62,439 nucleotides of DNA. Origin: a virus. Below the pieces are notes generated by a model. The model worked only from the letters and a program-made list of their open reading frames with translations, made no database searches and was not told the origin of the DNA. Position 1 is the stretch's first letter. The number at the start of each line of letters is the position of its first letter. A program made the position numbers and the translations under genes. The stretch spans positions 1-62,439 of the IMG/VR virus record IMGVR_UViG_3300036801_000157, one strand, 5' to 3'. Positions 4,074-45,587 of the stretch are shown one piece after another.

Positions 4074-4621
4074 TTATATTGACGTTTTCCTGTCGCGGAC
4101 GGGGCTCGAAGGTGGCCAACGACGAGGTCCAGCTCGCTTTGATCGCCGAGGCCGCGCCGCTCCGGGTGGCCGCCAAGCCATTCGTCGTCTTCGAGATTGC
4201 CGGCGAGCCGAAGGCCTGGGGCCGGCCGGGCGCAACCATTCGTTGGGCTAGTGGTCGACCGTTCATCCACTGGTATGTATCGGCGCCAGAGGCCGCCTAC
4301 AGGACCGCAGTAGCTTGGTGCGCCAAGAGTGCCATGAAGGGCCGAAAGCCCACCAGCGAGCCCGTGGCGCTGCTGGCGCATGCCTTCGTTGGCATTCCTC
4401 CAAGCTGGCATTGGCTCACCAAGCAAAAAGCGCGTTCTGGCGCGCTGTTGCCGACCGGAAAACCAGACCACGACAATTTTCTGAAACTTCTCTGCGATGC
4501 CTTGCGCGGAATTGTTTGGCTCGATGATGCCGCCGTCGTCGATGGCCGATGCATTAAACGATTCAGCGATCGACCAGCACTTAGATGCGAGGTCAGAGAA
4601 TTCACTTCGTCGCTAAAATGA
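4070..4621 (+). CDS. rusA: RusA-family Holliday-junction resolvase
   Basis: 183 residues. The C-terminal half carries the RusA signature: Lys-Pro-Asp-His-Asp-Asn, then Leu-Cys-Asp-Ala-Leu, then Trp-Leu-Asp-Asp-Ala-Ala-Val-Val-Asp. The acidic residues bind the catalytic metal. RusA enzymes cut four-way junctions symmetrically; in phages they resolve branched DNA before packaging. The first 20 residues are less conserved and a start nearer Phe-Glu-Ile-Ala-Gly-Glu-Pro is possible, but ATG 4070 keeps the ATGA coupling. It is the last gene of the operon, followed by a terminator-like hairpin. Confidence 0.9.
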   Translation: MIILTFSCRGRGSKVANDEVQLALIAEAAPLRVAAKPFVVFEIAGEPKAWGRPGATIRWASGRPFIHWYVSAPEAAYRTAVAWCAKSAMKGRKPTSEPVALLAHAFVGIPPSWHWLTKQKARSGALLPTGKPDHDNFLKLLCDALRGIVWLDDAAVVDGRCIKRFSDRPALRCEVREFTSSLK

Positions 4622-4624
4622 AAA

Positions 4625-4649
4625 CGGGCCGCGTTTGGATCGCGACCCG
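4625..4649 (+). terminator. Terminator-like hairpin after rusA
   Basis: CGGGCCGCG and CGCGACCCG pair with one mismatch around a seven-base loop, starting three bases after the rusA stop. On the plus strand it is followed by pyrimidine-rich TTCATTCATT; on the minus strand by TTTT, so it may act on transcripts from both sides. Confidence 0.5.
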
Positions 4650-4666
4650 CTTCATTCATTACTGCC

Positions 4667-5755
4667 TTGCGTTGCCCAGCCTTTCCGGACCGGACCACGC
4701 CAAGCCTCACCCGATCACATCTCGCCACAACCGGACAGACCGCGCCTGCCGAACCAAGCCTAGCCACGCCATGTCGCATCCCGCCCCACTACGCCATGTC
4801 GCACCCCGCCACGCCTGCCAAGCCTGATCAAGCCTGTTCGAATCGAGTCGAGACATGCCATATCCCCGCCGCGCCTGCCTTCCATGCCAAATTTAACGCT
4901 GCCGAACGGACCTCGCCATATCGCGCCTGCCTTCCATGCCGCGCCCAATTCGACCCAACCACACCGGAACCTGTCGCACCCGACCATGTTTAGCCGAGCC
5001 GCGCCTGCCTGACCCAGCCTCTGCTCGCCGAACCCGGTCTAGGCTAGTGTTGCCACGCCTGCCATACCGACCGGAACTTATCTTGTCGCGCCCAGCCAAT
5101 CCCCGTCCCGTCTCGCCATGCCTGCCACGCCATGCCTTGCCTCACCCGACCGCACCGGGCCGTACCCTGTCCCACCGAACCATGCCGCACCGAACCATGC
5201 CGCGCCTTGCCGGACCCAACCGCGCCTGCCTCGCCACGCCCCGCCTGACCGTATTCAGCCCAGACGAACCTTACCCGACCCGACCACGCGCGCCGCGCCT
5301 GCCTCGCCCTACCTTGCCTCGTTACACCCAACCTTGCCAAACCCAATCCCACCTCGCCATTCCTGCCACGCTTGCCGGGCCTATCCTCGACCGACCTAGC
5401 CTTGTATCGCCAAGCTATATCAAGCCCCGCCTGCCAGACCTCGCCATGCCACGCCGGACCTTGTCTTACCTAGTTCCACCCCACCTCGCCTCGCCACGAT
5501 GCGACGCGCCATACCGCTCCTGCCATGCATGTCCATGCCTCGCCTCACGGCGCCCAGCCGGACCTCACCTCATCGGGACTTGCCCCGCCTGCCTTCCTTG
5601 CCTTGCCATGCCTTATTGCACCCGGCCCAGACACGCCCCATCTCGACTTACCGATCCTGCCATGCCCAGCCCAGCCTCACCTTTCCAGACCATGCCGTGC
5701 CACGCCCCACCTTGACTATCCGTGCAAGACCAAGCCCCGCCTGCCATAGATCACC
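4667..5755 (-). repeat. Pentamer tract T1: about 215 degenerate GGYNN units
   Basis: About 1.1 kb in which almost every five-base unit on the plus strand ends in RCC (examples: GAACC, AAGCC, TAGCC, ACGCC, ATGCC, GCACC), i.e. GGYNN on the minus strand. The phase slips occasionally but the period stays five. Long frames are open in several registers because NNRCC rarely makes a stop, so the Pro/Cys/His-rich translations are not evidence of a gene. It lies between the convergent early operon and the 7242-5867 operon. The GG-N3-GG spacing fits two-tier G-quadruplex motifs on the minus strand. Confidence 0.9.
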
Positions 5756-5815
5756 GCGCCCGCGATTGCGCCGAGCGTTGCGCTGCCAATCCGCACCGTG
5801 CCTGCCGAGCTTTTT

Positions 5816-5857
5816 CCGCTTCATAGATGCGGTGGCCCACGCGAGGAGCGCCTCGCG
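5816..5857 (-). ncRNA. Two-hairpin leader at the head of tract T1
   Basis: Read on the minus strand: a perfect seven-base-pair hairpin (CGCGAGG, loop CGCT, CCTCGCG; 5840-5857), then a CCGC/GCGG hairpin (5816-5832), then the GGYNN units. The same order and similar bases head T2 and T4, with pairing kept by different bases. It starts ten bases after the stop at 5867, so it could be the 3' untranslated region of the 7242-5867 operon or a separate RNA. Transcription has not been shown. Confidence 0.5.
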
Positions 5858-5866
5858 CCGCGGAAT

Positions 5867-6352
5867 TTATGCAGCGAGTCGTTGCTCCAAATCGATCAGT
5901 TCTTGAAGCATCCGCTGCAATAAACCAGACAAACCTGGATGTCTCGAATCGAGCATATGCGTAACATCACGCGCGCGTTCGATCGAACTCTTACAACGCA
6001 TAACTTCAGCCAGCACAATGCGTTCAGCCGCGCTGCGATTGATTGATGTGGCTGTGATCGGAACATGGCCGGCTTCGTTGTCGCGACGATCCGGATTTGA
6101 GACGTAATACGGCGAAACTATTCGCATCGATTCGTGAACGACTGTAACTGTTATGAATCGAATTAGTTCACCAGCCCGATCGAGCCGTTGCTTGTGCGCC
6201 GCCTTTCGGTCATCCCAAATAAATTCTGAATGCAATACATGCCGCGCTGGACGAGCAGCGCGGACGATGTCCTCTCGCTTCAGCACGCCGCCGTTCGCCT
6301 CGCGGATTTGCTCCAGCGCGTCGCGGATTTGATCATCTCTGCGCGATGCCAT
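5867..6352 (-). CDS. Phage protein of unknown function
   Basis: 161 residues. Its ATG overlaps the stop of the upstream gene (TAATG). The N-terminus (Arg-Asp-Asp-Gln-Ile-Arg-Asp-Ala-Leu-Glu-Gln-Ile) and the segment Ser-Glu-Phe-Ile-Trp-Asp-Asp-Arg-Lys-Ala-Ala-His are reminiscent of a small phage protein family encoded beside recombination genes. The C-terminal half is helical. No catalytic motif is visible. Confidence 0.75.
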   Translation of the reverse strand: MASRRDDQIRDALEQIREANGGVLKREDIVRAARPARHVLHSEFIWDDRKAAHKQRLDRAGELIRFITVTVVHESMRIVSPYYVSNPDRRDNEAGHVPITATSINRSAAERIVLAEVMRCKSSIERARDVTHMLDSRHPGLSGLLQRMLQELIDLEQRLAA

Positions 6353-7242
6353 TATTCAATCCCCACATATTCTGCCTCGCCCTTGCCATCAAGCTTTTCA
6401 AGAATCACTGGGCCTTTCGGCATCGGCCGACGCTTGCCTTTGCGGTCCACCAGTTCATGATCCTCGGCATCGATAAGCTGGCCAAGCATCTCGCGCCGCG
6501 CGACTTCTTCGGAAAACCAAGTCAGTAGTTCTTCGGTGTTTTCATCGAAAAATCCAGGTGATTTGAACGCCTTGTCCTGCGCCGTGCGCGCTTGGGTCTT
6601 GACGATGCGCTTGAAATCAGCATTATTGGATTCGACGACATCGTAAGCGCCGAATGGTCCGCCTTTCTGGCCACGCCAATCGCCGATGCCGACGATCTTG
6701 CCGGCGGCGCCAAAGAGATTCACGACGGTTCGCTCTGTCAGGATGCCTCGGATGTAGCGAAAGGTGATCGTGCCGCACCACTCCGGAAAGATCGGCCGTG
6801 TGCGAACGTCCGGCGTGCGATTCTGGTCAGAATTGCGCACCATTGCGCAATAAATTTCTGGCGTGCCATATAGGTTTACCTGCAATTCTACGATCTTGGT
6901 GAGCCGCTCGATTTTGGCTTTTGCCGTTCCTGGAATGTCGAGCGCGACCGCCGACAATGCGCCGTGAAATGCGCCGGACGGAACGTGAATGAGCGTCTTC
7001 TCTTTCAGATCGCGGTTGACATAAAGCGCGCCTCTGAACTCAGCAGGCGGATCGTGCTTGAGGCTCTGTTCCAGCCCAGCCCGGTTCTGCCTGATGCTTG
7101 GGAACAGCAATTCCCGCCAAGCCTTTGCGGCAAATCTATTCATGATCATCGGAGACGTGCCGAGGAAGTTCATCGTCACTTCGTCGATCTTGATCTCCTG
7201 GATTTCGAGCTGCGCCTCTTCTTTTTTCCTCTTCGGTGCCAT
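6352..7242 (-). CDS. Widespread siphophage protein, probable recombination-region component
   Basis: 296 residues. Recognisable blocks are Gly-Thr-Ser-Pro-Met-Ile-Met-Asn-Arg-Phe near the N-terminus, Phe-Pro-Glu-Trp at about 150, and Ile-Gly-Asp-Trp-Arg-Gly-Gln-Lys-Gly-Gly-Pro-Phe-Gly near 190. The same blocks occur in a common phage family that usually sits next to recombination or nuclease genes and has no settled function. The N-terminus is Lys/Glu-rich. First gene of a two-gene leftward operon with its own promoter-like sequence (7289-7317). Confidence 0.8.
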   Translation of the reverse strand: MAPKRKKEEAQLEIQEIKIDEVTMNFLGTSPMIMNRFAAKAWRELLFPSIRQNRAGLEQSLKHDPPAEFRGALYVNRDLKEKTLIHVPSGAFHGALSAVALDIPGTAKAKIERLTKIVELQVNLYGTPEIYCAMVRNSDQNRTPDVRTRPIFPEWCGTITFRYIRGILTERTVVNLFGAAGKIVGIGDWRGQKGGPFGAYDVVESNNADFKRIVKTQARTAQDKAFKSPGFFDENTEELLTWFSEEVARREMLGQLIDAEDHELVDRKGKRRPMPKGPVILEKLDGKGEAEYVGIE

Positions 7243-7288
7243 TTGGTGTTGTCCTTGCTAGACATCGGCCGATTTAGCCGCGCGGCCA

Positions 7289-7317
7289 CTATTGCCAAAT
7301 AATCCAGCGTTTGACAA
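7289..7317 (-). promoter_or_regulatory. Promoter of the 7242-5867 operon
   Basis: Minus strand TTGTCA (7312-7317), a 17-base spacer, and CAATAG (7289-7294). The -10 lies in GGCAATAGTGGCC (7284-7296), a variant of the GGCC-N5-GGCC element found at other starts. It follows the terminator of the structural operon, consistent with a new transcription unit. Confidence 0.45.
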
Positions 7318-7322
7318 GCCAC

Positions 7323-7378
7323 AAAAAAAAAGGCCCGCAGCCGGCGCAAGGATAAACCGGCTACGAGCCCTGTGGGCC
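7323..7378 (-). terminator. Intrinsic terminator of the long leftward structural operon
   Basis: Minus strand: GGCCC, an inner AGCCGG/CCGGCT stem and GGGCC form a GC-rich hairpin, followed directly by nine T residues. This is the clearest terminator in the window. It lies beyond the last structural gene and tract T2, so both would be on the terminated transcript. Confidence 0.85.
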
Positions 7379-7431
7379 AAATCCGCGACGGGATCGTGCG
7401 GCTTGGCGGCACCTAAAGTGTTAATACCTTC

Positions 7432-7700
7432 CAGGTCGGCCTGACCGCGCCTGTCCTAGCCTCACGCGCCCCGCCGCACCGAGACTTACCCAGCGTGCCT
7501 CGCCTGCCAAGCCATGCCGAACCGGACTGTACCCAGCAACACCTGACCACAACATATCACGCCGTGACGAACCCCGCCTGCCTCGCCGCGCCGAACCGAT
7601 CTGTACCTTGTCCTGACGTGCCCAGACGTGCCCGGACATACCAAGCCTGCCCTACAATTCCGAGCAAATGGACGTGCCGCGCCGTGCCTACCGACCGTTT
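7432..7700 (-). repeat. Pentamer tract T2: about 52 GGYNN units
   Basis: The same five-base pattern as T1 (plus-strand units such as AAGCC, ATGCC, GAACC, GCGCC, ATACC). It lies between the last structural gene and the terminator, so the GGYNN strand is the transcribed strand. There is no coding frame with a ribosome site. Confidence 0.85.
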
Positions 7701-7701
7701 A

Positions 7702-7744
7702 CCGCTTCATAGCTGCGGGCGGCCGCGCGAGAAACGTCCCGCGC
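7702..7744 (-). ncRNA. Two-hairpin leader at the head of tract T2
   Basis: Minus strand hairpin 1: GCGCGGGA, loop CGTT, TCTCGCGC (7725-7744), fully paired if one G-U is allowed. Hairpin 2: CCGC/GCGG (7702-7717) with loop AGCTATGAA, matching CTATGAAGCGG in T1. Then GTCGGTAGGCACGG, close to the T1 equivalent. It begins 11 bases after the end of the gene at 7756. Confidence 0.5.
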
Positions 7745-7755
7745 CACAGCGTGTG

Positions 7756-8352
7756 TCATACGCCGGAATTTCTTGAATCGTCAAGCAGCGCATTGACGCG
7801 CTCTGACGCTTGCACAGTATCGTCGAACTGTTCAACCCCCCATTTGCCAGCGCCGATCAGTTTCACAACATAACTGCCGTGCGTAATTTCGATATCTTTT
7901 TCTGGCAGCACCAACCAAACACGATCGTGAATTCTAATATGAACCAACAAAATTTCATCGGCAGATCGCACATGCAAGCCACGCAACGACATCGCCTTTA
8001 ATTGTTGATAATATGGCGCATCTTTCCACACATCAGGATAATCAGGATCAACCGTGCACGTCACACATTGGACTCCATTGAAAACACCAAGACTTAAAAT
8101 CATGTGACTCAATAATGGAAACCATTCATGGCCGACTTTCGGGCTCATCAGCCAGCCACATGCATAGGTGCGACATATCTGCGGACGCGCTTCGTAAATT
8201 CCGCAGCCACCGCAGCCAGGCCGACAGTGCTCGCACCAAACGCCTGCCGGCTTGGATAATTCGGCAACAAATAATAATCGGCAGCATTCGGAACACTTGC
8301 CGCAGGATCGTCCTGGCGCGATTGGCGGGCCACCGTGCATCACGTTGTCCAT
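7756..8352 (-). CDS. YkgJ-like CxxCxxCC cysteine-cluster protein
   Basis: 198 residues. Near the N-terminus Cys-Gly-Lys-Cys-Ser-Glu-Cys-Cys matches the CxxCxxCC signature of the YkgJ family, thought to bind zinc or an iron-sulphur centre. More cysteines follow in Cys-Gly-Gly-Cys-Gly-Ile-Tyr-Glu-Ala-Arg-Pro-Gln-Ile-Cys. The frame extends upstream to 8550, but that part is a shadow of the overlapping gene. ATG 8352 (13-base overlap) or ATG 8340 (TGATG overlap) are the likely starts. It is the last gene of the tail operon, an odd place for this family. Confidence 0.75.
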   Translation of the reverse strand: MDNVMHGGPPIAPGRSCGKCSECCRLLFVAELSKPAGVWCEHCRPGCGGCGIYEARPQICRTYACGWLMSPKVGHEWFPLLSHMILSLGVFNGVQCVTCTVDPDYPDVWKDAPYYQQLKAMSLRGLHVRSADEILLVHIRIHDRVWLVLPEKDIEITHGSYVVKLIGAGKWGVEQFDDTVQASERVNALLDDSRNSGV

Positions 8353-9716
8353 ATTCCAAACCCGACCGGCGCGGGATAAATAAACGGCGTGCCGGATACG
8401 GTGCCGCCGAAATTGCCGACCATCTGATCGTTGATCGCGCCGCTGGCGCCGCCGAAGCAGACCGCAGGCGCCATCGGCGACGACGCCTGGATGACCACAC
8501 CGCCGATGCCAGTGTTCGGATTCTCGGAACCGAGAACAAGCCCGTTCCAATTGCCGCCGTTCTTACGCAGCCACGCTTTGCGCGCGCCGAGATCGATCGC
8601 AAAGCTGATCACATCGCCAGATGTGCACGCGCCGAGCGTCTTGCCGCTATTAGCGCTGTTGGAAAATATATTTCCTGTCGACCTGTAGAGCGCCGTGCAT
8701 TGAATGCCGCCGACCATATTGTTGAAAGAGCCGGTCGACGAAAGTAGTCCTGGACAATCGGATGCGCCATGCGTCACGGCCATCGTGACTTCGAAATAAT
8801 ACTTGCCTGCCGTTTTCTGCGTTGTGCTGATAGCACCGCCATTGGCGACTGTGCTGGTGCGGGTCACCGATAATTTGCTGGCCGACAGCGAGACCGCAGC
8901 CGCCGTGCCGTCGAATGATGCTGGCTGACCACTGACGACGACTGGTATGTAAAATGCTTCCTGGTCGAACATGACATCGATATCGATTATTTGATTGCCG
9001 CCGAACAACGACAGAAGATAGATGGCGTCAGTGTCTGTTGCTAAGCCGGCGAACAATGTCGCGATAACATCGCTTCGTGCAGCATAGATCGCGTCGCTAT
9101 CAGTCACCAACGAGACGCCGAGCACTGTCGCGCTCGTGCGCGCTGGTGGATAAAACACATCCAGATCATTGACGAAAGGCGCAAACAGGAAATTTCGAAA
9201 CACGATCGGCGCGAACACCGAGTCCGATTCCGTGTGCCGGCCTGGCAGCACAGTCAATGGCGTGCTCAATTCCGGCGCAAACACCATTTCGAAATCTCCG
9301 AACAGGCTTGGTCGCACCGATCCAGGGAGCCCGACGACCGCCGAGAATATCGCGTCATCACTATTATATATGTTTGGCCATACGCTGCCAGGTGCCACCA
9401 CTGGCGCGATGGAAGGCAACGACAGAACGTCACCGTCGAAATAGATCATCGGCGTGACGACCTGATCGCCTTTCAGGATTGGCGCAAACACGAAATCGTC
9501 GGTGATCAGGAATCCAATATTCATAGCTTGTGGAATTATGGCGGCAAAAATAGAATCTAATTCGGATACAAATGGCGACGACAACAATTGAGTGACGGCA
9601 TAATCGAACGCAATGAACGGACCCATAATACCGTCGGCGTCATCGTAATAACGCGTTGGACCAATCACACCGCGAGGCGTGAGCGTTCCGATCTGCGCAA
9701 TGATGCCTGAGATCAT
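8340..9716 (-). CDS. Tail-associated protein with Asp-x-Asp repeats and a SPRY-like C-terminus
   Basis: 458 residues. The first 270 contain repeated Asp-x-Asp-x-(Ile/Val)-(Phe/Tyr)-x-(Ala/Pro) units, such as SDSVFAP, SDAIYAA and TDAIYLL. The protein at 24929-26188 carries the same units. From about residue 300 there is a SPRY/B30.2-like domain: Gly-Lys-Tyr-Tyr-Phe-Glu-Val, then Gly-Asp-Val-Ile-Ser-Phe-Ala-Ile-Asp-Leu, then Lys-Ala-Trp-Leu-Arg-Lys-Asn-Gly. SPRY folds bind partners or glycans. Overlaps the upstream gene by four bases. A receptor-binding or fibre role is inferred from place and architecture. Confidence 0.75.
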   Translation of the reverse strand: MISGIIAQIGTLTPRGVIGPTRYYDDADGIMGPFIAFDYAVTQLLSSPFVSELDSIFAAIIPQAMNIGFLITDDFVFAPILKGDQVVTPMIYFDGDVLSLPSIAPVVAPGSVWPNIYNSDDAIFSAVVGLPGSVRPSLFGDFEMVFAPELSTPLTVLPGRHTESDSVFAPIVFRNFLFAPFVNDLDVFYPPARTSATVLGVSLVTDSDAIYAARSDVIATLFAGLATDTDAIYLLSLFGGNQIIDIDVMFDQEAFYIPVVVSGQPASFDGTAAAVSLSASKLSVTRTSTVANGGAISTTQKTAGKYYFEVTMAVTHGASDCPGLLSSTGSFNNMVGGIQCTALYRSTGNIFSNSANSGKTLGACTSGDVISFAIDLGARKAWLRKNGGNWNGLVLGSENPNTGIGGVVIQASSPMAPAVCFGGASGAINDQMVGNFGGTVSGTPFIYPAPVGFGIWTT

Positions 9717-38204: not shown

Positions 38205-40913
38205 TCACTGCCCCGTCTGCGATCTTCGCTGCAATGATGTCAACGGCGCCTGCTTCGCACCTCGCGCCTTGCCAGGTGCCTTCGCCTTGGGTGCGGCTTT
38301 TGCCTTCTTCGGCTTCGGAGCTGCCTTAGCCTTCGGAGCCGCTTTCGGCTTCGGACCTTTCTTTGGCTTGGGCCCAGCCTTGGCCTTGCCGCCTCCTTTG
38401 GCACCCTTACCACCACCGCCACCTTTGCCGCCGCCCGATCCCTTGCCTTGGCCTTGACCCTGGCCTTGACCCTGGCCCTTCTGCGGCTTGTCTCCCTTGG
38501 CTGCGGCCTTCGCCTCTTTCGCAGCCTTCGCAGCGTCCGCCTTCGCGGCCTGCGCGTCCGCGCGCGCCTGCTTGGCATCAGCCTTGTCCTTCGCGCTGGC
38601 GTCTTTCGCAGCCGCCTTCTCCTCGGCCTTCTGCGCTTTCGCCTCGGCCTTGGCAGCCTTGTCCGCAGCCTTAGCCTCAGCCTTGGCGGCCTTGGCCTCC
38701 GCACGCGCCTGCTTGGCCTCGTCTTGAGCGTTTTGCTTTTGGTTCGCCTTCAAATCCTTGTCAGCCGCCTTGGCCTCGGCGGCAGCCGCCTTCGCCTCGG
38801 CCTTGTCCGCCCGATCCTTGGCGGCCGCAGCCTGCTTGTCGGCCTTCGCCTGCGCGGCCGTCTTGTTCGCCTCAGCCTTCGCGGCCTCCTTTGCAGCGGC
38901 CGCCTCGGCCTTTGCCTTGTTGGCCTCGTCACGCGCCGCCTTGGCCGCGTCCTTGTCCGCCTGCTTGGCGTCTTTCGCCGCCGCCTTGGCCTCAGCCGCC
39001 TTGGCCTTTTCCTCAGCCGCGTCGGCCTTGTCTTGCGCCCTGTCCGCTTCCTTGTCGGCCTTCGCCTGCGCCTTTTCCGCTGCAGTTGCCTCTTTCGCCT
39101 TGCCTGCCTCGGCCTTCGCAGCCTCCTTTGCCGCAGCCGCCTCGGCCTTTGCCTTGTCAGGCTCTTTCGTAGGCTTCTCGGCGGCCTTGCCCTTCTCAGG
39201 TGTCTTCTCAGCCGACTTATCAGGCTTCTTGGATTTCTCGGGCTTACTGGCACCACCACCGGGAGACGAGGCAAACAGGCCAGCGGGCCCGTGATTCGGA
39301 TTGAAGTCGGCAACGACGCCACGGGCGTCGCCCGCACCCTTGCCACCTGGGAACGTGCTCTTGCGCATGTTCGGCGGAAGCTGCCCAGTCTGCCCTGGCT
39401 GCGGCGGTGGCGGCCCGCCAGGCATGCCACCAGGCCCGGGTGGCGCTACCGGCGGCGGCGCATTCGGATCGAACGGCGCGGTATGCTGGCCAGGGCCAAA
39501 CAGCGTTCCAACCGGCGCCGGCTGCGGCGTGTTCTGTTCCTCGATCGTGTCGCCTTCCATGGCCGCGTCGTCGAGCGCCTTCTCAAAGCCAGGATAAACG
39601 CCGTCCTCGATCAACTGATTGGCACGCCCATTGGCCAATGCCACCGGCGGTAATTGCGCGGCATTCACGTCGATCTGGTACGCCTGCGCTTTCTTGAGCG
39701 CGATGTCGGCCTTGTCGCCATCCGACAATTGCCACAGCGAATTCCATTCGTACCAGACCTCGGGCGGACGCGTACCGAGCGCCGAGCGGATCAGCACCTC
39801 GTCGAGCGCCGTCATCGCAGGAGTCAACGTAACCGTCTGCTCCGAGGACAGCCGATCGTAATAGTTCCTGAAATCAGCCTCTCCAGTCACATTCAATCCG
39901 CGATGCGGCAATCCGAGAAATCTGCCAGCCGGAATATCCACCGCGCCGGAAGCGATCTGTAAATATGTCGAAAGCACCTGTGGCGCAGCCGTTAGATTGG
40001 CCTCGACGCGCTGCCATTTCTCGTTGCCATCGATCAGCACTGTGTTGATGACGCTCTTGGCGGCATTCGCGGCCTGGAAGCGAGCGATCATCTTGCGCTC
40101 GCCTTCCTTGGTCGACAGAATGCTCTTCAATTCAGGAACGCTGATGATGTCGACCTTCATTTCGGCTACCAGCGTCGCCAGCGAGCCGGAAACCAGCGAG
40201 CACATTTTCACAGCATCGCTCACCGCTTGCAGAACGCTGTCGCCCCAGACCGTGTTTAATAATTGATCGGCAGTGTCCATGCCGATCAGCTTGATCACCC
40301 GCGAAGGGTGCAGCCTCACCTGCGTCTTGGAAAAATTCGGATCAGATGGATCGTTGGTCTGGAATGATCTATCGACCGGACGGTTCTGCGCTTCGTAATA
40401 TTCAGGCTGCCCGTAATATCTCGACGAAATGTCGTAAATAACCGGTCCCATGCTGATCTGATTGCGCGAGACGACGTGCAAGAACTTCAGCGAATCCTTG
40501 GTGACATCATCGTAATTAAGCTCCTCCTCGGGATCGCCGGCATCGACTCCGATGATGATCGCCGAGCCGCCATAAAGCCGCGCCTTGATCAGAGCTTGCT
40601 GAACCTTCTTCTGTAACAATAATTTCTTTTCGGTCGCCTCCAGCAATTGAATCTGATCCGGATCGGCCTGCCAATTCCGCCATTGTCGCGTCATGTCGAA
40701 AGCGGGAACATCAACCGCTTTCCTACTAATCCAATCGCCGCGATAACTAAATTCCAATTCCTGCGTCGTCAATAATGCGAATGTGTAGGCCTGCGACATG
40801 AATTTGTCGCGGCCAGGAACGCCAAGACCAGCGAGCAAATTAATATAACCGTCAGACCACCGGACGGCCTCCGTCGGCGGCATGCTTACAACATTGTCTT
40901 GCGCATCAGTCAT
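38205..40913 (-). CDS. DUF1073-type portal protein with a histone-H1-like C-terminal extension
   Basis: 902 residues from ATG 40913 (AAGGGTG upstream; a GTG two codons earlier is less likely). Residues 1-440 are the portal (Trp-Ile-Ser-Arg-Lys-Ala-Val-Asp-Val-Pro-Ala-Phe-Asp-Met, Gly-Gly-Ser-Ala-Ile-Ile-Ile-Gly, Gly-Leu-Asn-Val-Thr-Gly-Glu-Ala-Asp). Residues about 450-555 are Pro/Gly-rich. Residues about 560-812 are a Lys/Ala/Glu/Asp helix built of AKAEAAAAKEAAK-like units. Then come a Gly/Gln/Lys stretch and a basic tail of (Pro/Ala)-Lys-(Pro/Ala)-Lys units as in histone H1. Related portals normally end before this. The extension could bind DNA or the head interior. Confidence 0.85.
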   Translation of the reverse strand: MTDAQDNVVSMPPTEAVRWSDGYINLLAGLGVPGRDKFMSQAYTFALLTTQELEFSYRGDWISRKAVDVPAFDMTRQWRNWQADPDQIQLLEATEKKLLLQKKVQQALIKARLYGGSAIIIGVDAGDPEEELNYDDVTKDSLKFLHVVSRNQISMGPVIYDISSRYYGQPEYYEAQNRPVDRSFQTNDPSDPNFSKTQVRLHPSRVIKLIGMDTADQLLNTVWGDSVLQAVSDAVKMCSLVSGSLATLVAEMKVDIISVPELKSILSTKEGERKMIARFQAANAAKSVINTVLIDGNEKWQRVEANLTAAPQVLSTYLQIASGAVDIPAGRFLGLPHRGLNVTGEADFRNYYDRLSSEQTVTLTPAMTALDEVLIRSALGTRPPEVWYEWNSLWQLSDGDKADIALKKAQAYQIDVNAAQLPPVALANGRANQLIEDGVYPGFEKALDDAAMEGDTIEEQNTPQPAPVGTLFGPGQHTAPFDPNAPPPVAPPGPGGMPGGPPPPQPGQTGQLPPNMRKSTFPGGKGAGDARGVVADFNPNHGPAGLFASSPGGGASKPEKSKKPDKSAEKTPEKGKAAEKPTKEPDKAKAEAAAAKEAAKAEAGKAKEATAAEKAQAKADKEADRAQDKADAAEEKAKAAEAKAAAKDAKQADKDAAKAARDEANKAKAEAAAAKEAAKAEANKTAAQAKADKQAAAAKDRADKAEAKAAAAEAKAADKDLKANQKQNAQDEAKQARAEAKAAKAEAKAADKAAKAEAKAQKAEEKAAAKDASAKDKADAKQARADAQAAKADAAKAAKEAKAAAKGDKPQKGQGQGQGQGQGKGSGGGKGGGGGKGAKGGGKAKAGPKPKKGPKPKAAPKAKAAPKPKKAKAAPKAKAPGKARGAKQAPLTSLQRRSQTGQ

Positions 40914-40959
40914 GATCACCCTTGCATTAATCTGACAAATAGGCCACTTTGGCCGTGCG

Positions 40960-41004
40960 GCGTCGAGCGTTCTCGGCGCGGTCGCCCGGTAGCGTTAAAC
41001 CGGG
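40960..41004 (+). ncRNA. Two-hairpin leader at the head of tract T4
   Basis: Plus strand hairpin 1: GCGTCGAG, loop CGTT, CTCGGCGC (40960-40979), fully paired with one G-U. Hairpin 2: CCCGGT/ACCGGG (40985-41004). Then GGGGCACGG and the GGYNN units. The same layout as T1 and T2 with different bases in the stems. It is antisense to the flanking portal and fibre genes. Upstream is GGCCACTTTGGCC (40942-40954), which may belong to the minus-strand portal promoter instead. Confidence 0.5.
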
Positions 41005-41009
41005 AATTG

Positions 41010-41370
41010 ATCGAGGGGCACGGTTCGGACAGGCGAGAACGAGGCGCGGCCAGACAGCGCTCGATAATCTTTGGCAGGAGCGGCTAGACCGGACGGGGCG
41101 AGGCTGGGCATGGCGCGTTCGGGCAAAGCGCAGCGTGGCAAGGCAGGCGTGGTTGGGTTGGACATGGTGCGGCATGGACTGGCGGGGTCAGGCGGGGCTT
41201 GGCCTGGCAGGCCAGGCACGTCGGGCGCAGCGAGTCTAGTGCAGGCAAGGCACGGCGCGGCGAGGCATGTCGCGGCAGGGATTGGCATGGCAGGCGCGGT
41301 CCGGTGCGGCTGAGCAGGACGTGGCTGGGCGCGGTGCGGATTTGCCCGGCAACGCAAGGCCGGCAGAATG
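41010..41370 (+). repeat. Pentamer tract T4: about 75 GGYNN units
   Basis: GGYNN on the plus strand (units such as GGCAA, GGCAC, GGCGC, GGCGA, GGCAT, GGCAG). It fills the gap between the portal and collagen-like fibre genes; no gene is seen in it. Confidence 0.85.
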
Positions 41371-41406
41371 TTTGGTGGCGGTCGTCCTTCGGGGCGGCCG
41401 TCATTT

Positions 41407-43233
41407 TCAACGCATCCTGCGCGCACGAATAAATCCAGTCGCGGTCGTAGTCGGCCCTAGCCCCACAAGATAAATCGTGGTGGCGACGTTGACGTTGAAA
41501 CGGCACACACCCGTCGGCATCGACATCGCCGCCTTGCCGAAATTCATCGAGAGATCATTCATGGCGCCGACGCCGGTCGCGAGCTGCGCCGCGGTCGGCA
41601 ACACGGCCGACGCATTGCTGATCGCAACGGCCATTCGCGTCGCGGCTGATGCTGGCGCGACGAAGCTCACCACACCGGAAACATCCCAATCGCCAGGACT
41701 CAGCAGAAGAGAGCCGATATTCGCAGCAATGCCGCTAGTGAGATTGACGGCCGTCGTAACCGAGGTCGAGAGAACCTCCCCAATTTTGCCAGCCGCCGCA
41801 TTGTCGGCCGCAATGGTGCCATTAGCAGCCGCCCGTGACGTATCGGTCGGATGGACATGATCGCCGCGCGACCATGCAGTTGCGACCCCAGTTGCAGCCG
41901 TCCCGTTCATGGTCGGGATGGCGTTCGAGGCGCCCGGCGTCAGCGGCACAAAAATCAAATTGTCGGTGCCTAACGTGGCCGTGTTATTCGGGTTTGCCGA
42001 AACCGCAACCGGACCAGGCGGGCCAGGAATGCCCTGCGCGCCGGATGTACCCTGTGTGCCGGCCACGCCCTGGGTGCCCTGTAGACCAGCTACGCCAGCC
42101 ACGCCGGCCGGCCCCTGTGGTCCCATTGGACCCATCGCGCCAGCGGCACCTTCTGGTCCCTGTAATCCTGCCGGTCCAGCAGCGCCCTGTTGCCCAATGA
42201 CCCGAACACCGAACAACACATTCGGCTTGTTGCCGCTAAGCGGCGTCGTCCCCTGCTTGACGAACGTCACTGCGAAAGAAACATAGGTGGTATTGTCGAC
42301 TGGCGGTCCGTTCAGCGTATAGACGGCATAGCAAGTCGAGTCGTTCGCCGCCTGGACGAAAACCTCGTCCCCTGCATTCGCCAAAAGCAATTGCAAGCGC
42401 TCGTCGACACCGTTCTGGTCAAGCGAGGCCACCCAGATTTGCGTGTTGCTCGGAGCATCCGCCCCATCAGTGCGGATCATTCCGTTGCCAGGCGGCGGCG
42501 TGGCAGCCGAGGCATACGCCCATGGCCACAAGCTGGTCGACGTGCCCGGCGAGCCCTGCGGTCCTTGTGGCCCGATTACGCCGGGATCACCTTGAGGCCC
42601 CGGCATGCCCTGTAGCCCGCTCGTACCGTCCTGGCCGGCGGCACCAGCCGGTCCTTGATCTCCTTGAAGCCCTTGGGGGCCTTCTAATCCCTGTGGCCCC
42701 TCAGCCCCGTCTTGCCCGGCCGGCCCTTGTGGACCTTGAGAGCCCTGGGGCCCGAGGTCGCCTTGCGGACCTGGAACACCCGGCGCGCCGTCAACGCCGG
42801 CAACGCCCGGCGGACCGACGGGCCCAGCCGGCCCTGGATCACCTTGTGGACCGGCCGGCCCAGGTGGCCCGACGCCACCAGCGCTGCCTACCGCGGTCCA
42901 ATCCGCATTCTGGCGCCCGTAAATCGTGCCGTCCGTCGGCGCCTCGGCAATGCCGCCACCGCCATCGGTCGGCACCGTCGGACTGCTGCCATCCTGCGAA
43001 AACACCGCATCCGCGCGCCCGCGCATGAGGACGCCTTCATTGATCAGTGCCTGCTGGAACGAAGCCATGATCGGGTCGTCGAGGTCGACCCAATTGAGCG
43101 CTATCGCTTGATCCCAGCGCCGCATGATGTTGCCGCCGACAAACTGCACGCCGCGCATGCGATGACGGAACAACGAAAATTCAGCGTCGGTGAACCTGCT
43201 CGTCCAATCCGTGAATGTGAGGTATGCTCCCAT
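41407..43233 (-). CDS. Collagen-like fibre protein
   Basis: 608 residues from ATG 43233 with GGAG five bases upstream. Residues about 120-230 and 350-410 are Gly-x-y triplets rich in Pro/Gln/Asp ([11 protein letters not shown]-like), which form collagen triple helices. Between them is a compact beta domain of about 110 residues ([10 protein letters not shown]). The C-terminus has [10 protein letters not shown], a fibre motif, then a beta-rich tip. The N-terminus lacks a signal peptide. It sits between terminase and portal, an unusual place for a fibre. Confidence 0.85.
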
Positions 43234-43244
43234 TGTTCTCCAGC

Positions 43245-45587
43245 TCAATCCGCTCCAATCCAGCCAAGATCGAGATCGTAATTGCGAGCGCGATCATCGA
43301 AGCATTTCCATGCAAGACCAAGGGCCATACAGCAATCGTCAAAAAGTCCAGGAGGAGCCGCATAGCGAATACCAAGGCGAGTCCATTCGTATTCCATGGA
43401 TAGCAGCTCGATGCTGATCGGCCCCTCGGGAAACCGCACCTTGCGCTCGTGGATCGCCAACCCGAGCCCTTCCATCAGCCCCTGCTTGGACGCCTGCGTG
43501 AACCTGAAACCTTCGAGCCGCGGACAACTCAGCTCGATCACCTCGGCGCGGTTCGATCCGCTGCGCACCGGCAGCTTGATGGCTTCGACTATCGGATCAC
43601 CGACACCAGTCTCATCCACCAAAGCAGGCGTGTTGCCCACGTATTTCTTGATAATGTCCACTGTGACATGCCAAGGCCGCTGGAAGCGCAACGCTTCGCA
43701 GACGTGGCCATCCTCATCAAGGCCGATGCCGACCGTATAATCCACCTTTCTCGCCAGGTCCCAGCCCCATGCCACCGCGGGCCGCTCGCTCAATGGCGCA
43801 AAACATGCCCTGATATGCTGGGCACCGAACGGATTGCCCTCGTCGTCGCTCGGCTCGGCGAGATAAAGCTCCTTGAAGACATGCTCTGGCAGCATCGCCT
43901 TCGCCGATCTGATCTCCTCATCTGCGAGCACGCCAGCAGCAACCGCATCCCATGCCGTTATCTTGTGGTAACCGAAATTCGGCATGCCTTGCTCGGCCAA
44001 ACGCGCCAATTGGAAAAACCAGTTTTGGCGTCCCTTGACATTTCCGATTATGCGGATCGGACCGCGCGTCGCCGTCAGTGTCGAGCGGATGGCATGAAAT
44101 GCCTCTTCACGACATCTGCTCGCTTCGTCCACTACGCAGGCATAGACATCTTCACCGTAAAGTGAATTACCAGACCAGCAAGGCTTTCCGTTGCGCCTGA
44201 CAAGAATGCATGTATTCGGAACCGAAACACAATGCACCGTACCATCATATGAGCGGCCCTCATAAAATGGACCGGCCTTCGTTGAACTAAGACATCGCGA
44301 TGTCAATTCCGAAAACATAACTCGATAGAGTGGAGCGCGCTGCATAATGTCGCGTCCATCCTTCAATTTGCCGGATGACATCTCCGGATTTGGATGTTTG
44401 ACGCCGATAATCGCGCTATAGCCGCACTTGAGAGCGATTTCCTGAATATCGTCCGCTAGCCGTTTACTAGCTGTCCAGATGACTTCAATATGCCCACGAC
44501 GGATGCAACCATCACCCATGGCGAGCCACACCAGCAATGTGCGCAGCTTATCCGGTGGAAGCTGCTTCACTGCACATGGAATATATTTTTTATATTTGTC
44601 GCCCAACACAACAAGATAAGACCAAAGTTCCTTGTCCCATATTTTTAATCCGGCCGAATATTCTTTCGTCTTGTGCCCTAATCTTGCAAGCACTTCGCCA
44701 AACGCTTCTCGAACTTCGCCCTTCTCGCCACCCTTGATCCCAGCCGTTTGTGCAAAATGAATGCGATAACCGTTGCGCGCCACGAGCGCTGCAGCTTTCT
44801 CAATTGTGCTGGCATTGCCAAGAGCCGAACCTTCAGCCAAATAGAAACCTAAAAATGCGCAAAAATCATGCGTCATGACATCGTTGTCAAAGCCATCCCA
44901 TCGAGAGTGCATTGGAATCGTATCATACGCCTTTAGCTCACTCGCTGGCACCCACATTTCAACTGATCTCGGCTTGGCACGCCTACCTGGACCGAGCCGA
45001 GATGCTCCACGCTTGCGCTGCACAATCTGCCGATGATTTGGTGTCACCAACAAATCGATCTTGTTCGCCCGAATGGCGACCATTTCGCCATTATAAGGCT
45101 GATGAATGATACGCGTTGGTCGTTGCCATTCAGCCACCCCACCAGGTGATCGCGTCATCACATCGTCCGTAGTGAGAACATCTGCAAAATACTTCCACCC
45201 ATCCAGAGTAAGCACCTCTGTCTCACTGTCATAACAGTCAGGCCGATCAGAGCCGCGAAATGCAATCACCGCGCCATTGATCATAGTCAGCGTATGATCG
45301 GTAAGGTGGGTGGTGAAAACCGATCTCCCATCCTGATCGAGAAAATGCTGACGCATCCGATTGAAGGCAATGCGAGCCTGCAATGTGACCGGCGCAACCC
45401 ACCAAAAATTCTGTCCTGGCCCGCCCTTGAGCGCCTGCTCGTACAGCCAAATGATGGCGCTCACCGTCTTGCCAGATTTAGCGCTCGCCTCGATCAGCGA
45501 AATGCGCGCCGGATCGAACATGGCCGCGCGCTGCTTTTCATACAGCGGCGGCCGCTTGTAGATGATCTCGTGCGCCTGCTCGCTCAT
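43245..45587 (-). CDS. Terminase large subunit interrupted by an intein
   Basis: 780 residues; removing residues 118-474 leaves 423, a normal terminase size. Walker A: Glu-Ala-Ser-Ala-Lys-Ser-Gly-Lys-Thr (33-41). Walker B: Cys-Val-Val-Asp-Glu-Ala (C-extein). Nuclease acidic residues: Trp-Gly-Trp-Asp-Leu-Ala, Val-Asp-Glu-Thr-Gly-Val-Gly-Asp and Phe-Asp-Asp-Cys. It is the motor that packages and cuts phage DNA. Start overlaps the preceding small gene by ATGA. Without splicing, the ATPase motifs would be separated by 357 residues. Confidence 0.92.
44166..45236 (-). mobile_element. Intein with LAGLIDADG endonuclease in the terminase
   Basis: 357 residues. Starts at Cys118 ([10 protein letters not shown], block A), has block B (Val-Thr-Pro-Asn-His), two LAGLIDADG helices (Phe-Leu-Gly-Phe-Tyr-Leu-Ala-Glu-Gly and Leu-Val-Trp-Leu-Ala-Met-Gly-Asp-Gly), block F (Val-Ser-Val-Pro-Asn-Thr-Cys) and ends Gly-Asn before Ser475. 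The penultimate residue is Gly instead of the usual His. Insertion between Gly-Ser-Asp-Arg-Pro-Asp and Ser-Leu-Tyr-Gly is a conserved terminase site. Confidence 0.9.

Follow-up and report, generated by a model that had tools for sequence, protein, structure and literature searches.

What are the hairpin-bearing blocks that head three tracts of GGYNN pentamers in a phage genome, and what do the pentamers behind them do? The DNA analysed, called the window here, is the whole 62,439-nt stretch of IMG/VR virus record IMGVR_UViG_3300036801_000157, and its tracts are referred to as T1, T2 and T4. The original prediction for this locus had described at the head of each tract a leader of two hairpins whose stems differ in sequence but keep pairing, had taken the G-rich strand to be the RNA, and had proposed a repeated non-coding RNA family, with a structured 5' end followed by a variable-length GGYNN tail. 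Direct reading of the sequence bore out the three leaders in their positions, stems, loops and G.U pairs, and the pentamer tracts behind them are real (Table 1).

The block of 66-67 nt is a common structured leader heading T1, T2 and T4. Its first hairpin has 8 bp and a CGCT or CGTT loop in all three copies, its second has 4 bp except in T4, where it has 6 bp, and the block is closed each time by GGCACGG, after which the GGYNN units start. Both predicted hairpins are therefore present, but a third helix had been overlooked. This helix, P2, encloses hairpin 2 (GGGC/GCUC in T1, GGCC/GGUC in T2, GGUC/GAUC in T4) in the layout G24G25-N26-C27 with G53-N54-U55C56; pair 26/54 is G-C in T1, C-G in T2 and U-A in T4, while pair 25/55 is a G.U invariant across the copies. 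The occurrence of G.U pairs in all copies, one of them invariant, supports the earlier choice of the G-rich strand as the RNA strand, because on the opposite strand these pairs would turn into A.C mismatches. Kissing of the two hairpin loops was also considered by eye and rejected, being inconsistent between copies.

Over the 16 leader pairs, 97.9% of cells in the alignment of T1, T2 and T4 form a standard pair, as against 31-46% when the partners are slid by 1-3 columns, and both sides have changed in five of the pairs. The T1 and T2 leaders are 79% identical; local alignment of the T4 leader with that of T2 scores 30 (shuffled maximum 25), and with that of T1 it stays under the shuffled maximum. 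A covariance model built from T1 and T2 recovers the left-out T4 leader at 48.5 bits (E 2e-9), its sole further strong match in the window, while a sequence-only model of the same two copies gives this leader 16.1 bits (E 1e-3). Structure thus provides most of the T4 signal, since sequence by itself scarcely reveals this copy; the leave-one-out comparison on three copies is the test of covariation. Folding energies of the single leaders are ordinary for their base composition (z -0.3 to -1.9), so the evidence for the structure is comparative and comes from three copies only. As P2 was spotted on those same three copies, its own weight is that of one covarying position.

Table 1. Leaders, guide arrays, lead guides and neighbouring genes of the window
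Feature	Positions	Strand	Remarks
T1 leader	5861-5796	-	66 nt; hairpin 1 5858-5839; hairpin 2 5832-5816, then GGCAGGCACGG
T1 leader P2	5838-5835 with 5810-5807	-	
T1 guide array	4668-5802	-	~16 units, GGCA/GGC separators
T1 closing terminator-like hairpin and T run	4615-4650	-	CGGGTCGCG..CGCGGCCCG TTTTCATTTT; by inspection, not listed by terminator scan
Guide T1_1	5662-5741	-	16 NN; homologue of vap-like gene, opposite strand; z 10.5
T2 leader	7747-7682	-	66 nt; hairpin 1 7744-7725; hairpin 2 7718-7702
T2 leader P2	7724-7721 with 7696-7693	-	
T2 guide array	7440-7688	-	~4 units
T2 terminator-like site	7350-7334	-	terminator scan
Guide T2_1	7583-7647	-	13 NN; homologue of ORF 7756-8550; z 7.7
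T4 leader	40957-41023	+	67 nt; hairpin 1 40960-40979; hairpin 2 40985-41004
T4 leader P2	40980-40983 with 41009-41012	+	
T4 guide array	41017-41370	+	~5 units; inverted relative to flanking structural genes
T4 closing terminator-like hairpin	41377-41408	+	11 bp, weak T run; found by eye, absent from terminator scan
Guide T4_1	41077-41141	+	13 NN; portal gene of sister phages; z 9.8
vap-like gene	5867-6352	-	161 aa
vipr-like gene	6352-7242	-	296 aa, RAMP-fold protein (predicted), C-terminal extension
Gene preceding T2	7756-8550	-	phrog_9155
Portal gene (PF06381)	38205-40919	-	adjoins T4 leader

The tracts themselves are highly regular. Position 3 of the GGYNN consensus is C in 56% and T in 33% of cases in the window, and the NN positions are near-free. 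The arrays are split at a recurrent GGCA/GGC junction, where the 4-nt GGCA separator shifts the pentamer phase by one base; the spacing from one separator to the next is 52-104 nt (3 or 4 modulo 5 in 17 of 19 cases), and most guides between separators hold ~10-17 pentamers, one holding 20. The T1 and T2 arrays with their leaders lie directly behind the stop codons of the vap-like gene and of the gene preceding T2, respectively, both leaders beginning at most 12 nt past the stop. A scan of the regions upstream of the leaders gave no convincing promoter candidate. From its sequence each tract reads as a leader, then an array, then a terminator. A further weak GGYNN-like tract, T3 (47239-47080, minus strand), lies behind a short gene; it has no leader (no match to the model) and no GGCA separators, and is possibly a decayed array or a product of chance.

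This organization recalls VIPR (Viral Interference Programmable Repeat), a system of phage RAMP proteins and vrRNAs (PMC13142463; bioRxiv 2026.04.26.720920). According to the preprint's main text, a vrRNA alternates GGY and NN over 9-16 repeats, DNA is read at each NN with a 1-nt skip that falls at the codon wobble base, the targets are in competing phages, and the loci carry accessory vap genes (vap1-6) (PMC13142463). The unit sizes of the window fit the repeat number, and a candidate for the protein sits between T2 and T1. The AlphaFold model of this Vipr-like protein (pLDDT 85.9, 40-sequence alignment) predicts a RAMP fold: every Foldseek match listed for it is a CRISPR effector subunit or complex, and its best VIA Z, 10.7, is to Csm3-type (Csm3/Cas7) subunits of Csm complexes. 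Besides the window, an iterated profile search found Vipr homologues in 89 of 126 loci, 120 of which had been fetched by the GGYNN DNA pattern alone and six as vipr relatives. Genes like vipr adjoin GGYNN arrays in Gordonia phage ODay, Pseudomonas phage LESphi2 and Cy-LDV1; in ODay and Cy-LDV1, as well as in locus L126, homologues of the vap-like gene are found next to vipr and GGYNN arrays. The peptide patterns used found no vipr in bacterial genomes; Pfam returned nothing credible for the Vipr-like or the vap-like protein, and PADLOC returned nothing. With class 1 CRISPR systems the locus shares the fold of the Cas7-family (Csm3, Cmr) RAMP backbone and, in the manner of a crRNA 5' handle, a conserved RNA element next to guides of programmable sequence; it differs in having no identified CRISPR repeats, in guides read only at NN and in an RNA element that occurs once per array.

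Separators can be compared among the vipr relatives. The nearest of these, which share the C-terminal extension, use similar ones: GGCAGGC (L126, L025, L078), GGCGGTC (L075, L100) and GGCCGTC or GGCAGTC (L076). Separators vary between phages (L075, L076, L100, L126) and recur within each, so that a separator may evolve jointly with the Vipr or processing factor of its phage. Among the other genes of the window, a terminase-like ORF (43245-45587, minus strand) matches a phage family annotated as thymidylate synthase over residues 115-254, a match that may reflect an insertion or a domain in common.

The NN dinucleotides were decoded as positions 1 and 2 of consecutive codons, following the published 1-nt-skip rule, and the guides were compared with the window's own proteins against 200 shuffles. 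The rule is borne out for three guides only, T1_1, T2_1 and T4_1, and shuffles never reached the own-protein score of any of them; the other guides tested gave no significant match in the window's proteins. An apparent match of T2_2 to the same gene as T2_1 was dropped, as it was not significant with 200 shuffles. In each array it is the gene next door that the first full guide behind the leader matches, and each time the phage's own copy is mismatched: T1_1 agrees with the vap-like copy (6092-6139) at 24/32 bases and T2_1 with its own copy (7927-7965) at 21/26, and in the phage's own portal gene the counterpart of the T4_1 target, codons 40748-40710, reads SYRGDWISRKAVD, with mismatches. The own-gene mismatches to the lead guides sit at non-wobble positions.

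T4_1 decodes to AYRG[DE][CW][IM]AR[KN]AV. Its 18-base core is matched at 18/18 in 65 viral contigs, every time in the portal gene (65/65) and with the skip at the wobble base, a number owed in part to family conservation, as portal genes conserve this motif. What discriminates is that T4_1 matches 25/26 bases in three contigs, a sister phage included, and 20/26 in the phage's own portal. The 16-base cores of T1_1 and T2_1 have 3 and 21 matches in viral_contigs, respectively, with outer positions near background, so their exact targets, which were not found in IMG/VR, are either absent from the collection or differ within the core. At other loci, neighbour-gene targeting exceeded z 5 in 11 segments, compared with 4 and 1 in misread-code controls; as a general rule it is weak overall against these controls and is not proven. 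In L076, L090, L115 and L048, as strong single cases, a decoded guide peptide matches a gene ~0.2-1.6 kb from the array.

The sister phage (IMGVR_UViG_3300036801_000043) has a portal that is 91% identical at the protein and 86% at the DNA level. Its counterpart of the T4 interval is a virion structural gene (phrog_563): window positions 40915-41406 correspond to L251 1053-1529, with T4 in place of the sister's phrog_563 gene, and the part of the sister phage that was read showed no array. A 44% identical copy of the sister's phrog_563 protein is encoded elsewhere in the window (33403-32954).

Since T1 and T2 flank the gene of a predicted RAMP-fold protein and the tracts follow the GGYNN consensus and have lead guides that decode to genes of related phages, they are VIPR guide arrays. 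That T1, T2 and T4 are transcribed vrRNA arrays, with the RAMP-fold Vipr encoded between T2 and T1, is in our opinion very probable, transcription itself being presumed from the sequence. As in the preprint, GGY/NN pentamers have a free NN, a phage RAMP protein is present, arrays flank vipr and a vap-like gene on both sides, and targets decoded in related phages keep the 1-nt skip in wobble register; the preprint also has guides against other VIPR loci (PMC13142463). The locus departs from the preprint's main text in several ways (PMC13142463). Its structured element is 5' and occurs once per array, instead of the structured invariable 3' tail that stands behind each repeat tract in type II vrRNAs, so that the window does not conform to type II; its arrays are continuous, with GGCA separators, a layout to which the preprint's staggered overlapping arrays may be equal; it has in T4 an additional cassette, which lies inverted among structural genes a long way from vipr; and the lead guide of each array is aimed at a homologue of its own neighbour gene. 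Its Vipr, at 296 aa, is longer than the ~20 kDa described, because of the C-terminal extension (PMC13142463).

It follows that the repeated RNA family proposed earlier stands in one part, a structured 5' leader in three copies with a GGYNN tract behind it. It does not stand as an undescribed family with a variable tail: the tail is a string of VIPR guides accompanied by a Vipr protein of RAMP fold, and phage genes emerge when the NN positions of its lead guides are decoded. Nor did the search for further homologues, named with the prediction, reveal a wider family of leaders: the leader model R1 had no convincing match in 126 array/vipr loci, 28 phage records and 14 further loci, and the exact leader pattern had 0 matches in viral_contigs. 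Weak matches to the model, when inspected, were in array-free sequence of coding appearance. The nearest vipr relative opens its array with AGTAGGCACGG and does so without the two-hairpin block. The enrichment of hairpins ahead of arrays in general is no more than modest (21% against 11% at score 18), hence a structured 5' leader is no general VIPR trait. The leader is apparently a lineage-specific 5' leader of VIPR guide arrays, and it is this leader, together with the cassette layout, that is new with respect to the preprint's main text (PMC13142463). In polarity it is opposite to the 3' tails of type II vrRNAs (PMC13142463) and to those seen in L112 (3320-4035), where a two-hairpin element whose loops are AAATG or AAACG-like stands behind every short vrRNA of the array; the L112 elements would suit a covariance model of such tails.

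Several other explanations of the leader have to be weighed. A self-cleaving ribozyme or nuclease processing site freeing the array would suit a compact element that stops exactly where the array starts, and hammerhead-interspersed VIPR arrays are known (PMC13142463). We consider it unlikely, as Rfam gave no match at gathering score over the whole window (hammerhead and other ribozymes included), none around the T1 leader and only two unrelated sub-threshold ones around the T4 leader at E up to 5, and as the leader occurs once per array and is absent between guides. It is still less likely that the leader belongs not to the array that follows but, as a type II-style 3' tail, to a lost upstream vrRNA. 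Structured 3' tails do exist in type II vrRNAs (PMC13142463), the L112 element stands behind each short array, and LESphi2 has hairpin-bearing segments between arrays; yet none of the three leaders has an array upstream, and no structured element is found between the guides or behind the arrays of T1, T2 and T4. As the T1 and T2 leaders follow a stop codon so closely and T4 lies elsewhere, three independent losses would be needed. The same closeness to a stop codon could mean that the leader hairpins terminate transcription of the gene ahead or stabilise the 3' end of its RNA, but neither hairpin has a T run, the T4 leader is the same although no gene ends ahead of it on that strand, and conservation runs through GGCACGG into the array start, all of which makes this very improbable. 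Finally, four GG runs with 3-nt loops make, in principle, a two-layer quadruplex pattern, but that the tracts are G-quadruplex or protein-binding tracts (cf. TRAP-bound repeats) instead of guides is hardly credible, given that lead-guide NN positions, when read in codon register, yield phage protein motifs, that the pattern matches of T4_1 all fall in one gene family and that a RAMP protein is associated.

With T1, T2 and T4 taken as VIPR arrays, each would be a self-contained cassette of a three-helix 5' leader, GGCA-separated guides and a terminator-like hairpin. Under the published mechanism Vipr would hold the GGY positions, the NN dinucleotides would pair with DNA at 1-nt skips, and this pairing would repress genes of competing phages; the guides of the window would presumably repress those of sister phages and leave the phage itself unharmed. 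Judged only by its position and conservation, the leader could well serve the precursor RNA as a 5' handle or cap that sets the start of Vipr loading and the pentamer register and protects the 5' end, a tentative assignment, close to an even chance. Other roles for it would be mainly those of a processing signal or ribozyme.

Homing elements and marker exclusion are precedents for an attack function that lies beside a resisting allele and is inherited with it. By analogy, and somewhat more speculatively than the handle role, the cassette is possibly a linked attack-and-immunity unit, in which the lead guide represses rival alleles, the neighbour gene is a recoded, guide-resistant allele, and both are spread together by recombination, the leader making the cassette portable. 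It would differ from a homing element in being an RNA-guided repressor, not an endonuclease, and in leaving the target site itself uninserted. If this is true, phage recombination would spread array and resistant allele jointly, in the manner of a homing drive, and the leader would be the conserved module behind the portability of the cassette, as with T4, which stands where the sister phage has a structural gene.

VIPR has been known only since 2026, and the locus adds independent support, from sequence only, for its decoding rule (PMC13142463). The own-genome copy of the lead guide's target is the adjacent, mismatched gene, which suggests a route by which a phage may attack its relatives and spare itself. 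Both self-avoidance and the passage of guide arrays from phage to phage thereby become directly testable.
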